NCBI GenBank assembly: GCA_937951485.1
Contig: CALEDJ010000008.1
Coordinates: forward strand, 1-35,911
Source of the DNA: an uncultured bacterium
GTDB lineage: Bacteria > Hydrogenedentota > Hydrogenedentia > Hydrogenedentales > CAILVY01
Direction of reading: 5' to 3'
DNA length: 35,911 nt
The notes under the pieces: generated by a model
Databases searched by the model: none
Seen by the model: the letters and a program-made list of their open reading frames with translations, nothing else
Told to the model about the DNA's origin: nothing
Position numbers and translations under genes: made by a program
Shown: positions 28,290 through 35,911 of the stretch, piece after piece
Numbering within the stretch: the stretch's first letter is position 1
Layout: every line of letters starts with the position of its first letter

Positions 28290-28378
28290 CGTTCGTTCCG
28301 CTTCGGATGTTGGTCGGATTGGGAAAATAGACGAAAGAACATTCAGGTTCGGTTAACAGGTGATCTTGTGTTGCTGGA

Positions 28379-28451
28379 TTCCCGCTTTCGCGGGAATGAC
28401 CGGTTGGAACAGGGCGTTCGATTCAATCTGTCTTTCCCGCGAAAGCGGGAA
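28379..28451. repeat. Inverted pair of 18-base palindromic repeats
   Basis: TTCCCGCTTTCGCGGGAA at 28379-28396 and its reverse complement TTCCCGCGAAAGCGGGAA at 28434-28451 flank 37 bases. From memory, the extended form (GGATTCCCGC...GCGGGAATGAC) is an interspersed intergenic repeat seen in many bacterial genomes. It lies between the aldolase and dehydrogenase genes and could act as an mRNA hairpin. Confidence 0.75.
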
Positions 28452-28552
28452 TACGGAACGATTCCTGCCGCCGACAGATCGGCTGCAAGAATCGGCAACG
28501 AACCCACGATTTTCATCCCCAACCGAACACGAACGAACAAGAGGAGTATATT

Positions 28553-32376: not shown

Positions 32377-32400
32377 ACCGTTCTAACCATCAGAACCTCT

Positions 32401-32452
32401 TGTGGCATGGGCGTCCCGCCCATGAAACGCGGGAAAGATCCCCGTGCCACGA
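32401..32452. repeat. Interspersed hairpin repeat
   Basis: CATGGGCG (32406-32413) and CGCCCATG (32417-32424) form a perfect 8-bp stem. The outer TGTGGCA and TGCCACG ends can also pair. From memory, GTGGCACGGG...GGGCGGGACGCCC elements are scattered between genes in planctomycete/hydrogenedentes-like genomes. It may contribute to termination after the ceramidase-like gene. Confidence 0.5.
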
Positions 32453-32554
32453 TCAAACACAGCGGTTTTTGTTAAAGGCTCTAAAGATTGCGCCGATTCC
32501 TGCCGAAATAAAAAGTACAGTAAAAGGGAGACCCGACGCAGAAAGGAGGCTGTC

Positions 32555-32752
32555 ATGGCTGGGATCGCAGCAATGGTCAGCGGCGTCGGGGCCGGTGTGA
32601 GCCAGGTTCGTTTTCAGGATCACGACCGGTCGGTCCAACTGAAGGAACAGGACAGGCCGACCGGTGATGTGGGGTCCGCGGCACTGCAGTTGATTCAAAG
32701 TGCGCTGAGAGTTCCTGGAACGACAGGACGCGACCTCGACGTGCTGGCTTAG
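32555..32752 (+). CDS. Small YjfB-like (putative motility) protein
   Basis: 65 residues starting MAGIAAMVSGVGAGVSQVRF and ending RVPGTTGRDLDVLA. The layout (short hydrophobic helix with IAAM, a polar middle, then ALQLIQSAL and a terminal G-x-x-[IL]-D-[IV]) resembles the YjfB family of about 60-residue putative motility proteins. GAAAGGAGG lies just before this ATG, a near-perfect ribosome-binding site. The same frame is open from 32444, but that longer form has no such site. It stands alone between the ceramidase-like gene and the CRISPR locus. The gene is likely real; the family link is by eye. Confidence 0.6.
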   Translation: MAGIAAMVSGVGAGVSQVRFQDHDRSVQLKEQDRPTGDVGSAALQLIQSALRVPGTTGRDLDVLA

Positions 32753-32773
32753 CACTTTACGACTCCTTTTTTT

Positions 32774-32808
32774 CGGGAGGGCGGATGCACGGAGGCGACG
32801 CCCTCCCG
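32774..32808. other. GC-rich inverted repeat after the small YjfB-like gene
   Basis: CGGGAGGGCG (32774-32783) and CGCCCTCCCG (32799-32808) form a 10-bp stem 21 bases past the stop codon. The T-run lies before the stem on the plus strand, so it is not a textbook intrinsic terminator, although it could stabilise or end the small gene's mRNA. Confidence 0.45.
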
Positions 32809-32845
32809 ACTGTTTCCCGCCACATCGCTTTCCCCAACCATCAAT

Positions 32846-32879
32846 AAAAAATGCCTCCAAAACCTTGCGGCCAGGAGGC
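32846..32879 (-). terminator. Intrinsic terminator of the tracrRNA candidate
   Basis: On the minus strand GCCTCC-N15-GGAGGC (32879-32853) folds with an inner CC-GCAA-GG mini-hairpin and is followed by ATTTTTT. Confidence 0.75.
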
Positions 32880-32961
32880 GATAGGGTCGGCGCATGCGCC
32901 GGAGCCCACCGTGATGATTCCTTACTATGATCAGTAGGGAATCACCGCTCAGATATACTGT
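32846..32961 (-). ncRNA. Candidate tracrRNA of the type II-C system
   Basis: An RNA of about 116 bases is predicted on the minus strand, divergent from cas9. It begins about 7 bases after a consensus promoter and ends in an intrinsic terminator. In order it has about 17 unpaired 5' bases, a long imperfect hairpin (GTGATTCC...TACT, loop GATCAT, AGTA...GGAATCATCAC; 32944-32911), a short GGCGCATGCGCC hairpin (32900-32889) in a nexus-like position, and the terminator stem. This matches the layout of Neisseria-type II-C tracrRNAs, whose anti-repeat is itself partly palindromic. If so, the CRISPR repeat should resemble the plus strand from about 32911 to 32947. No array is in the window, so base-pairing with a real repeat cannot be checked. 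The placement, promoter and terminator make an RNA gene here very likely. Confidence 0.75.
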
Positions 32962-32964
32962 GGG

Positions 32965-32993
32965 TTGACTATAGCACGTTTTTGCGTTATTGT
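32965..32993 (+). promoter_or_regulatory. cas9 promoter
   Basis: TTGACT (32965-32970), 17 bases, TATTGT (32988-32993) form a strong promoter reading toward cas9, with a start near 33000 and a leader of about 117 bases. It is interlocked with the tracrRNA promoter on the other strand. Confidence 0.65.
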
Positions 32994-32996
32994 CAA
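32968..32996 (-). promoter_or_regulatory. tracrRNA promoter
   Basis: On the minus strand TTGACA (32996-32991), 17 bases, TATAGT (32973-32968): a perfect -35 and a -10 with one mismatch to consensus. Its -10 overlaps the -35 of the cas9 promoter and its -35 overlaps the cas9 -10. Confidence 0.75.
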
Positions 32997-33116
32997 GTCC
33001 CTGGTGCATTTATGCGCACAGTGGGCAAGACAAGAAAGAAAAGGGGATGCTCTGCGGTTTCTGTTTGTGGGGAAATTCTTGAATACGCCTTGGCATAAAC
33101 GGGTGGAGGACGTCTC

Positions 33117-35911
33117 ATGAACACGGAAAATCGTAAGACGGTGTTGGGACTTGATTTGGGGGCCAATTCGCTCGGCTGGGCGCTGCTTGCCTTCGACGGC
33201 GACACCCCTTGCGGATTGATCGATATGGGTGTGCGCGTCTTTGAAGCGGGCACGGAAGGCCAGATTGAATCCGGCCGGGACGAATCACGCGGCGTGGAGC
33301 GGCGTCAGGCGCGGCAGCGCCGCCGCCAGACAAAGCGCCAATCCATGCGCATGGTCAGGCTGGCCAAAACCCTGCAGCGATACGGCCTCCTGCCGCCGGG
33401 CGATGTGCAAAGCGGGAAAACACGACACAACCTCTTCGAGGAATTGGACAAGGACTTGCGCCGCGAATATGCGGAACGAGGCATCCCCGTGGATGCCTCA
33501 ACCGGACTCCGCGAATTTCCCTATTTCCTGCGCGCCCGCGCCCTCGACGAAGCCCTCCCGCCCCATGCCCTCGGCCGCGCACTCTACCACCTCGCCCAGC
33601 GCCGCGGCTTCCTCAGCAACCGCAAGTCCGACAAAGACGAAAAGGAGTTGGGCGTCGTCAAGTCGGGAATCAGCGAACTGCAGAAGGCAATCATCGCATC
33701 AGGTGCGCGCACCCTCGGCGAATACTTCTTCCGCCTCGATCCCGTGTTGGAAAAGCGCATCCGAAGCCGCTGGACCGCGCGCGGCATGTATCGGCACGAA
33801 TTCGATCAGATCATGGAGGCGCAAGAGCGGCTGGGCGGTTTCAAGTTGTCCGACGGCGCGCGTAAGGCCATCGCCGACTGCATCTTTTATCAGCGGCCGT
33901 TGAAAAGTCAAAAGGGATTGGTGGGGGAATGTGATCTTGAACCCAAGAAAAAGCGCGCACCCAGGGCGCTGCTCTGCGCGCAACGGTTCCGGCTCTTGCA
34001 GAAGGTGAATGACATGTGCGTGATTTTCCCGGATGGACGCAGCCGACCACTGAACGATGACGAAAAACAACGGCTTGCGGCGCATCTGGACACGGTTCGG
34101 GAAACCACCTTCGGCAAGTTGCGCAAGGAACTGGGCCTTCCCAGAAACTCTGAATTCAACCTGGAACAGGGCGGCGAGAATAAACTGAAGGGAAACACCA
34201 CCGCAGCGCCTTTGCGCGAAGTCTTTGGGGAACGCTGGGATGCCCTGGGCCGAGACAAGCAGAACGCCATCGTCGGCGAACTGATGGGGATTGAAAAGGA
34301 AGAGGCGTTGTTGCGGCGCGGAAAGTTCTGGGGCCTCAGTGACGCGGAGGCGGAAAAGTTTGCCAAAATAAAACTGGAAGAGGGATATATTTCCCTCTCG
34401 CGCGAAGCAATCAATAAACTGCTGCCGCTCATGGAGCAGGGCATATCCTTCAAGACCGCGGAGAAGCAGGTCTACGGAGCCGCGCAGTGGTCCAAATTGC
34501 TTTGCGACAAATTGCCGCCCGTGGCGGATGCCGTGCCGGCCGTCCGAAACCCTGTCGTCATGCGTTGCCTCACCGAACTGCGCAAGGTCGTCAACGCCAT
34601 CATCCGCAAATACGGCAAACCGGATGAGATTCACCTGGAACTTGCCCGGGACCTCAAAAAATCGCGGGATCAGCGCAAACGCATTTGGGAAGACAACCGC
34701 AAACGCGAACAGCAACGCGATGAGGCGCGCAAACGCATCGAGCGGGAACTTGGCCTCACAAAGATATCTCGTGATGACATCGAGAAGGTGCTGCTGGCGG
34801 AAGAATGCAACTGGACCTGCCCCTACACCGGAAAGTCCATCAGCATGAGCAGCCTCCTGGGGGAGCATCCGCAATTCGACATCGAGCATATCATCCCCTT
34901 CAGCCGCTGCCTCGATGATTCTTTCATGAACAAAACGCTTTGTCATCACGAGGAAAACCGGACGCGGAAGGGAAACAGGACACCGTGGGAAGCCTATGGC
35001 AACACACCGGAATGGGAAGCCATTATTGAAAGAGTGAAACGATTCAACAGACCCAGGATCAGTATGCCCGCAAAAGGCCGCCGCGGCGCACAGCGAGACG
35101 AAGACAAAGCCAACCCCAAACTCATGAGGTTCCAGATTCGCGACATCAAGGAGTTTGAGGAATTCACGACGCAGAAACTGAACGATACGCGCTACGCCTC
35201 AAAACTCGCCGCCAGATATCTCGCATGGCTTTACGGCGATGCGGCCAGAAGCCGCATTCAGACCAGCGCCGGCCAGATCACCGCGCTCCTGCGCGACGCA
35301 TGGCATCTGAACAAGATTCTCGGCGACCCGGAACGCAACCAGAAAAGCCGCGAAGACCACCGCCACCATGCGATTGACGCCCTCGTCATCGCCATGACAA
35401 ACCGCGCCGTGGTCAAGCGTCTGAGCGACAGCGCCAGACAGCAGCAGATGGAACGCGGCCGCGTCCGGGGCTTCATCCGACGCATGGAAATCCCCTGGCA
35501 GAACTTCCTCCAGGATGTGACCGACGCCGTGGAACGCATTGTCGTGTCCCATCGCGTCAGCCACAGGCTCAATGGTTGCCTGCATGAAGACACCATCTAC
35601 AGTCCGCCCCGCCAGGATGAAAACGGCAAAACCTGTCATGTGGTGCGAAAGCCGCTTAATGAAAAATTCAAGGCCGCTGATGTTGACACCATCGTGGACC
35701 CCGCCGTGCGTGACGCCGTCCGAAGGCATCTCGAAGCCCACGGCGGCAAAAGCGAGGACGCATTCGCCGACCCCGCCAATCATCCCAGGCTGCCGTCAAA
35801 AAGTGGCGCGCCGACGCCCATCCATCGCGTGCGCGTCAGACGCATCATAAGCCCCTTCATCGTGGGAAAAGATGAAAACATCCGATATGTGACCACAAGC
35901 ACCAACCATCA
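33117..35911 (+). CDS. cas9: CRISPR-associated endonuclease Cas9, type II-C (3' end outside window)
   Basis: Open from ATG 33117 (GGTGGAGG 8-15 bases upstream) to the window edge, 931 codons without stop. It is an RNA-guided DNA nuclease. RuvC-I: VLGLDLGANSLGWAL with Asp13. The Arg-rich bridge helix follows (GVERRQARQRRRQTKRQS), then REC (ALYHLAQRRGFLSNRK is typical of II-C). RuvC-II: EIHLELARDLKKS with Glu508. HNH: CPYTGKSISM then FDIEHIIPFSRCLDDSF with His591, close to the Neisseria form. RuvC-III: DHRHHAIDALVIAM with His751 and Asp754. The beginning of the wedge/PAM-interacting region is present. II-C Cas9s are about 1000-1100 residues, so some 100-150 residues are missing only because the window ends. 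All nuclease residues are intact. cas1, cas2 and the array would lie beyond the right edge. Confidence 0.96.
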   Translation, partial: MNTENRKTVLGLDLGANSLGWALLAFDGDTPCGLIDMGVRVFEAGTEGQIESGRDESRGVERRQARQRRRQTKRQSMRMVRLAKTLQRYGLLPPGDVQSGKTRHNLFEELDKDLRREYAERGIPVDASTGLREFPYFLRARALDEALPPHALGRALYHLAQRRGFLSNRKSDKDEKELGVVKSGISELQKAIIASGARTLGEYFFRLDPVLEKRIRSRWTARGMYRHEFDQIMEAQERLGGFKLSDGARKAIADCIFYQRPLKSQKGLVGECDLEPKKKRAPRALLCAQRFRLLQKVNDMCVIFPDGRSRPLNDDEKQRLAAHLDTVRETTFGKLRKELGLPRNSEFNLEQGGENKLKGNTTAAPLREVFGERWDALGRDKQNAIVGELMGIEKEEALLRRGKFWGLSDAEAEKFAKIKLEEGYISLSREAINKLLPLMEQGISFKTAEKQVYGAAQWSKLLCDKLPPVADAVPAVRNPVVMRCLTELRKVVNAIIRKYGKPDEIHLELARDLKKSRDQRKRIWEDNRKREQQRDEARKRIERELGLTKISRDDIEKVLLAEECNWTCPYTGKSISMSSLLGEHPQFDIEHIIPFSRCLDDSFMNKTLCHHEENRTRKGNRTPWEAYGNTPEWEAIIERVKRFNRPRISMPAKGRRGAQRDEDKANPKLMRFQIRDIKEFEEFTTQKLNDTRYASKLAARYLAWLYGDAARSRIQTSAGQITALLRDAWHLNKILGDPERNQKSREDHRHHAIDALVIAMTNRAVVKRLSDSARQQQMERGRVRGFIRRMEIPWQNFLQDVTDAVERIVVSHRVSHRLNGCLHEDTIYSPPRQDENGKTCHVVRKPLNEKFKAADVDTIVDPAVRDAVRRHLEAHGGKSEDAFADPANHPRLPSKSGAPTPIHRVRVRRIISPFIVGKDENIRYVTTSTNH

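Follow-up and report, generated by a model that had tools for sequence, protein, structure and literature searches.

The window, that is, the whole stretch of 35,911 nt analysed here, comprises an entire contig (C8) and stops inside a cas9 gene. This gene (33117–35909, plus strand) is truncated at the contig end (35911), and even so its product matched the Cas9 profile TIGR01865 (cas_Csn1) at 4.4e-210, with 700.7 bits against a cutoff of 100. Cas9 is accompanied by an anti-repeat complementary to the CRISPR repeat of the same genome, and these two features together identify the locus as a type II CRISPR-Cas system. It is II-C-like, and its control region lies between two divergent genes, tracrRNA on the minus strand and cas9 on the plus strand. 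The layout resembles type II-C loci with divergent tracrRNA (compare PMC3936727): the tracrRNA gene sits ahead of cas9 on the other strand, and two annotated relatives show the order cas9-cas1-cas2, the window contig itself ending within cas9. No cas1 was found anywhere in the assembly of this genome; the missing cas1-cas2 may sit in the gap between C8 and contig C39, which carries the CRISPR array. The cas9 leader is unusually long and holds an 11-codon open reading frame (MLCGFCLWGNS; 33047–33082, plus strand), out of frame with cas9 and preceded by a good ribosome-binding site, AAAGGGG. Elsewhere in the window, at 28378–28452, an inverted repeat with ATTCCCGCTTTCGCGGGAAT arms resembles the short palindromes that many genomes carry between genes.

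A pattern search located the CRISPR array right at the beginning of contig C39 (L111, 1–212), where four repeats are visible. On the crRNA strand, which was assigned from relatives and from the anti-repeat, the repeat reads GCTGTGGTTGGAAGGGAATCCCCGCTCAGGTATACT. A degenerate copy of this 36-nt repeat occupies positions 32924–32959 of the window on the plus strand, with 28 of 36 positions identical and no gaps, so that the minus strand constitutes a full-length anti-repeat. Six of the eight differences between anti-repeat and own repeat are of the wobble type, and the 36-nt duplex of the two was calculated at −53.4 kcal/mol, compared with −16.7 kcal/mol for shuffled repeats. This identity and pairing indicate that the minus-strand RNA is tracrRNA. 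Its gene spans 32846–32961, from a predicted 5′ end at about 32961 to a 3′ end in the T-run 32851–32846. An intrinsic terminator, seen in the fold, covers 32846–32879 (minus strand) and consists of a GCCTCC..GGAGGC stem followed by T6; it is missing from the output of the sequence scanner, whose loop limit is 8 nt. Compared with shuffled sequences, the predicted transcript (about 32961–32846) has a far better fold (z = −4.5). An Rfam search of the window returned no tracrRNA family at the gathering score.

The 5′ part of the anti-repeat in the tracrRNA can also pair with the segment just downstream of it (32897–32961, minus strand), looping the functional part of the anti-repeat. Pairing of this kind, with at least 5 pairs, was present in 34 of the 39 loci compared below, and in 54% when the 3′ part was shuffled. 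It was locus-specific, at −15.1 kcal/mol for a locus's own segments against −11.2 kcal/mol for swapped ones (p = 2e-7, uncorrected for relatedness), which suggests a conserved closed conformation of tracrRNA. Another reading of this hairpin, as a tracr-L or natural single guide, was rejected: the predicted start coincides with the anti-repeat edge and leaves no guide in front, and the partner of the 5′ part of the anti-repeat is the downstream segment rather than a crRNA mimic.

A hexamer scan of the interval 32400–33700 detected two promoter-like sites, compared with 0.4 in shuffled sequence. On the minus strand, the −35 hexamer TTGACA (32991–32996) and the −10 hexamer TATAGT (32968–32973) are separated by 17 nt and match the consensus at 11 of 12 positions, with a TG one base ahead of the −10 as an extension. 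The predicted start is an A at 32961, 2 nt from the end of the anti-repeat. On the plus strand, TTGACT (32965–32970) and TATTGT (32988–32993), again 17 nt apart, match at 9 of 12 positions, with only 4 of 6 in the −10, and would start cas9 transcription at about 33000. Both sites fill the same 32 bases, 32965–32996, with a three-base overlap between each −10 and the −35 of the opposite strand. The hexamers, spacers and overlaps therefore lie exactly where the initial annotation had put them when it drew the cas9 and tracrRNA promoters as interlocked. The minus-strand site is almost certainly the tracrRNA promoter that the annotation took it to be, judging from its sequence, the anti-repeat and terminator downstream, and its recurrence in related loci.

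Relatives of the Cas9 protein were collected from 15 of 68 genomes of the organism's own phylum, 31 of 392 genomes of the phylum of the Planctomycetota relative, 3 of 80 genomes of the phylum of the Krumholzibacteriota relative, and one further genome; among viral contigs, no relatives were found. The comparisons used the 39 loci, including the window, in which the end of the anti-repeat could be anchored upstream of cas9. The tracrRNA promoter proved to be conserved in place: a minus-strand promoter matching at least 9 of 12 consensus positions, with its −10 located 4–9 nt beyond the end of the anti-repeat and TTGACA 16–18 nt away, was present in 29 of 39 loci. Seven shifted control positions yielded 0–1 loci each.

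The interlock itself did not share this conservation. None of 32 relatives reached 8 of 12 matches in the plus-strand register tied to the minus promoter, and the same-family relative (L027) scored 5 of 12. A conserved minus-strand TTGACA limits the plus promoter in this register to 9 of 12 matches, which means that the window stands at the maximum possible; the six bases free to vary matched 1.78 on average in relatives, about the background level. In four relatives (L072, L089, L102 and L103), the ribosome-binding site of cas9 directly follows the tracrRNA −35, leaving no room for a cas9 promoter of the interlocked type and requiring the cas9 mRNA to start further to the left. As compared at the sequence level, the interlock as drawn is private to the window genome. 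The broader idea of a shared control site fared better: with either plus-strand element as the cas9 promoter, both polymerases would sit on the same DNA and shut each other out. Overlap of the cas9 and tracrRNA promoters is likely in the window and in many relatives.

A second candidate for the cas9 promoter lies within the tracrRNA gene. The degenerate repeat ends on the plus strand in TATACT (32954–32959), a −10-like hexamer oriented toward cas9, which in the window is without a good −35. Of the 39 loci, 37 show TAnnnT as the final plus-strand bases of the anti-repeat (TACACT in 18, TATACT in 11, TATAAT in 4, TACAAT in 3 and TACATT in 1), and this end is the 3′ end of each locus's own repeat. 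When all plus-strand −10 positions were ranked, the repeat-derived site came first in 16 of 39 loci and among the top three in 28. It was the top-ranked element left of the tracrRNA −35 in the four relatives with the adjoining ribosome-binding site, and it was second in the window. From hexamer positions, its predicted start and that of tracrRNA are about 5–8 bp apart, so that the same bases would be melted in either open complex. The TATACT/TACACT end of the fossil repeat is, on these comparisons, most likely the ancestral −10 of cas9 across the wider clade. In one further locus, on an Ilyobacter plasmid (L120), tracrRNA and cas9 share a strand, with tracrRNA upstream, and the −10 derived from the repeat is apparently destroyed. 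Such a loss would be expected if the element were kept only when pointing at cas9, on the strength of this one case.

The repeat end might instead be retained only for RNA pairing between tracrRNA and the repeat, in connection with RNase III processing, and have no promoter role for cas9. We regard this explanation as rather doubtful, and the evidence on it is mixed. At 12 nt, the conserved block takes in CTCAGG ahead of the hexamer, a stretch that is superfluous for a −10; the repeat end also co-varies with the own repeat of each locus, and the block is kept even in loci where cas9 is 200–375 nt away, which counts against a promoter. However, wobble changes between anti-repeat and own repeat in 22 loci affected 2 of 116 wobble-capable sites in the last 12 nt and 29 of 130 in the preceding 12 nt (Fisher's test, p = 3.5e-7; this and the other p-values from the comparisons of promoter with pairing, those on the −35 and the total score included, are uncorrected for relatedness of the loci). 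The constraint on the last 12 nt, read from these alignments, is thus greater than pairing alone needs. The wobble test was rejected as sole proof of a promoter, given that the 12-nt constrained block exceeds the length of the hexamer. Outgroup loci also argue against pairing as the sole reason. Anti-repeats of the Limnohabitans, Tistrella and Sphingobium plasmid loci are without roughly the last 10 nt, and the ends of those in Azospirillum and Bosea are changed, from which it follows that pairing of this end is not generally required there. Identity of the block was found in 19 of 23 clade loci versus 1 of 7 outgroup loci (p = 0.002). Finally, the −35 associated with the repeat-derived −10, which lies outside the constrained block, scored higher where cas9 was close.

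This last relationship concerns the length of the cas9 leader. The −35 of the repeat-derived element was above background overall (p = 0.011) and better in loci with the cas9 start within 75 nt (Mann-Whitney test, p = 0.017), and its score fell with distance to cas9 (Spearman correlation −0.39, p = 0.015). The correlation was confined to the −35 component; the overall score of this element showed none with distance (p = 0.35). Loci with long leaders, defined as more than 75 nt from anti-repeat to cas9 (157 nt in the window), carried an above-chance plus-strand promoter further downstream in 8 of 16 cases, compared with 2 of 23 short-leader loci (p = 0.007). In the window, this downstream promoter is TTGACT-17-TATTGT. 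In compact loci, the repeat-derived site is usually the best candidate for the cas9 promoter and has the better −35. Among long-leader relatives, strong separate promoters in the cas9 direction, without interlock, were observed 54 nt after the end of the anti-repeat in L030 and L031, at 166 nt in L088, and at 81 nt in L092 and L098.

Which plus-strand element would start the cas9 mRNA in the window was weighed on these grounds. The initial annotation assigned this role to TTGACT-17-TATTGT, interlocked with the tracrRNA promoter. This site outscores every other plus promoter in the interval from tracrRNA to cas9 (local p of about 0.015 against block shuffles), at 10.5 compared with 5.2 for the repeat-derived site on approximate scores built from E. 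coli hexamer frequencies. The distance from 33000 to 33117 leaves enough leader, and when the minus promoter is held constant, 0.065% of random sequences reach at least 9 of 12 plus-strand matches in this exact register. Against it stand the weak match of the TATTGT hexamer, the absence of the register from relatives, and the fact that a plus promoter overlapping the fixed minus promoter in any register arises in about 10% of random sequences. Taken exactly as drawn, the annotated arrangement has in our judgement slightly less than an even chance of being correct. It is one of two possible realisations of the overlap here and is compatible with a repeat-derived promoter across the clade, for which, judging by leader length, it is perhaps a local replacement in the window genome.

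We therefore consider it probable that the divergent region of this II-C-like type II locus combines a strong tracrRNA promoter with an overlapping cas9 promoter that faces it. The minus-strand promoter, close to the sigma-70 consensus, would start tracrRNA, from its predicted position, no more than 2 nt from where the full anti-repeat ends. Either plus-strand candidate overlaps this promoter, so simultaneous occupancy should be impossible, and RNA polymerase would occupy one direction at a time. As the tracrRNA promoter looks strong, it should depress cas9 and keep its expression low. With the long leader and the poor −35 of the repeat-derived element in the window, the private TTGACT-17-TATTGT may have taken over as the cas9 promoter. 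A switch in the ratio of cas9 to tracrRNA transcription, as proposed by the initial annotation, is plausible in physical terms.

The same annotation had suggested that Cas9 targeting this site would silence both genes. Autoregulation of this kind, in which Cas9 is directed to the promoter by a long tracrRNA or by a self-matching spacer, as in the tracr-L system of Streptococcus pyogenes, has a type II-A precedent (PMC11417352), and control of cas9 and tracrRNA at one site would allow a single bound Cas9 to block both. It appears very improbable here. At the scanner threshold, the interval 32400–33700 contains no second minus promoter upstream, the predicted tracrRNA start leaves no guide before the anti-repeat, and the 439 spacers collected from the loci included no match of 11 nt or more to the control region of the spacer's own locus. 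The window locus resembles the type II-A tracr-L/Pcas arrangement (PMC11417352) in coupling tracrRNA and cas9 expression; unlike S. pyogenes, it shows neither a promoter for a long tracrRNA nor a guide or a matching spacer, and the coupling would arise by promoter occlusion only.

The repeat-derived −10 has a counterpart in the crRNA promoters carried by every repeat in the type II-C arrays of Campylobacter jejuni and Neisseria (Dugar 2013, PMC3656092). In C. jejuni, repeats end in GGTAAAAT, and from this −10 each crRNA is transcribed, starting at the fifth position of its spacer (PMC3656092). The repeats considered here likewise end in GGTATACT or TACACT with a −10 at the 3′ end: the window genome's own repeat ends in GGTATACT, and those of relatives mostly in TAYAMT on the crRNA strand. 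Unlike in Campylobacter and Neisseria, the element concerned is a single inverted, degenerate copy inside the tracrRNA gene, and its candidate −10 points toward cas9 rather than a spacer. Most of the outgroup loci examined differ from the window in that their anti-repeats have lost or changed the 3′ end of the repeat.

The region is also similar to bacterial bidirectional promoters described by the Grainger group (PMC10268837, PMC12825309), in that its predicted divergent starts are so close that polymerases would be mutually exclusive. Against the definition of 7–25 bp between starts, the repeat-derived pair, at about 5–8 bp, falls at the edge, and the annotated pair, at about 39 bp, falls outside, both distances being based on predicted starts. 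The −10 elements are not superposed, lying at 32954–32959 or 32988–32993 on the plus strand and at 32968–32973 on the minus strand. The commonest, symmetric 18-bp form is thus not seen here, and one of the two products is tracrRNA. Competition between divergent promoters that overlap is seen in E. coli only if one side is strong, and low-activity bidirectional promoters operate without competition (PMC12825309).

Extending the argument to the wider II-C-like clade, which covers several phyla, we tentatively propose, as the less favoured side of an open question, that cas9 is transcribed from an inverted-repeat promoter fossil that doubles as anti-repeat and faces the tracrRNA promoter. Occlusion between the two would set the ratio of tracrRNA to Cas9, and long-leader genomes would have acquired replacement cas9 promoters. 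A search of open-licence papers yielded no description of an anti-repeat that contains a cas9 promoter, which is weak evidence of novelty. A promoter derived from a fossil repeat is a more interesting and more testable claim than a private interlock. The model predicts opposite-strand 5′ ends 5–8 nt apart and opposite effects of hexamer mutations on the two transcripts.

Both the Cas9/tracrRNA balance in type II-C systems and the origin of tracrRNA genes from repeats have been little studied. If the proposal is true, one 36-bp element serves as tracrRNA coding sequence on one strand and as cas9 promoter on the other, and cloning tracrRNA alone or cas9 alone from such loci severs the promoter of the other gene. 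If the repeat-derived element does start the cas9 mRNA, a single inverted repeat would have given rise to the anti-repeat and the promoter of the effector gene in one step.
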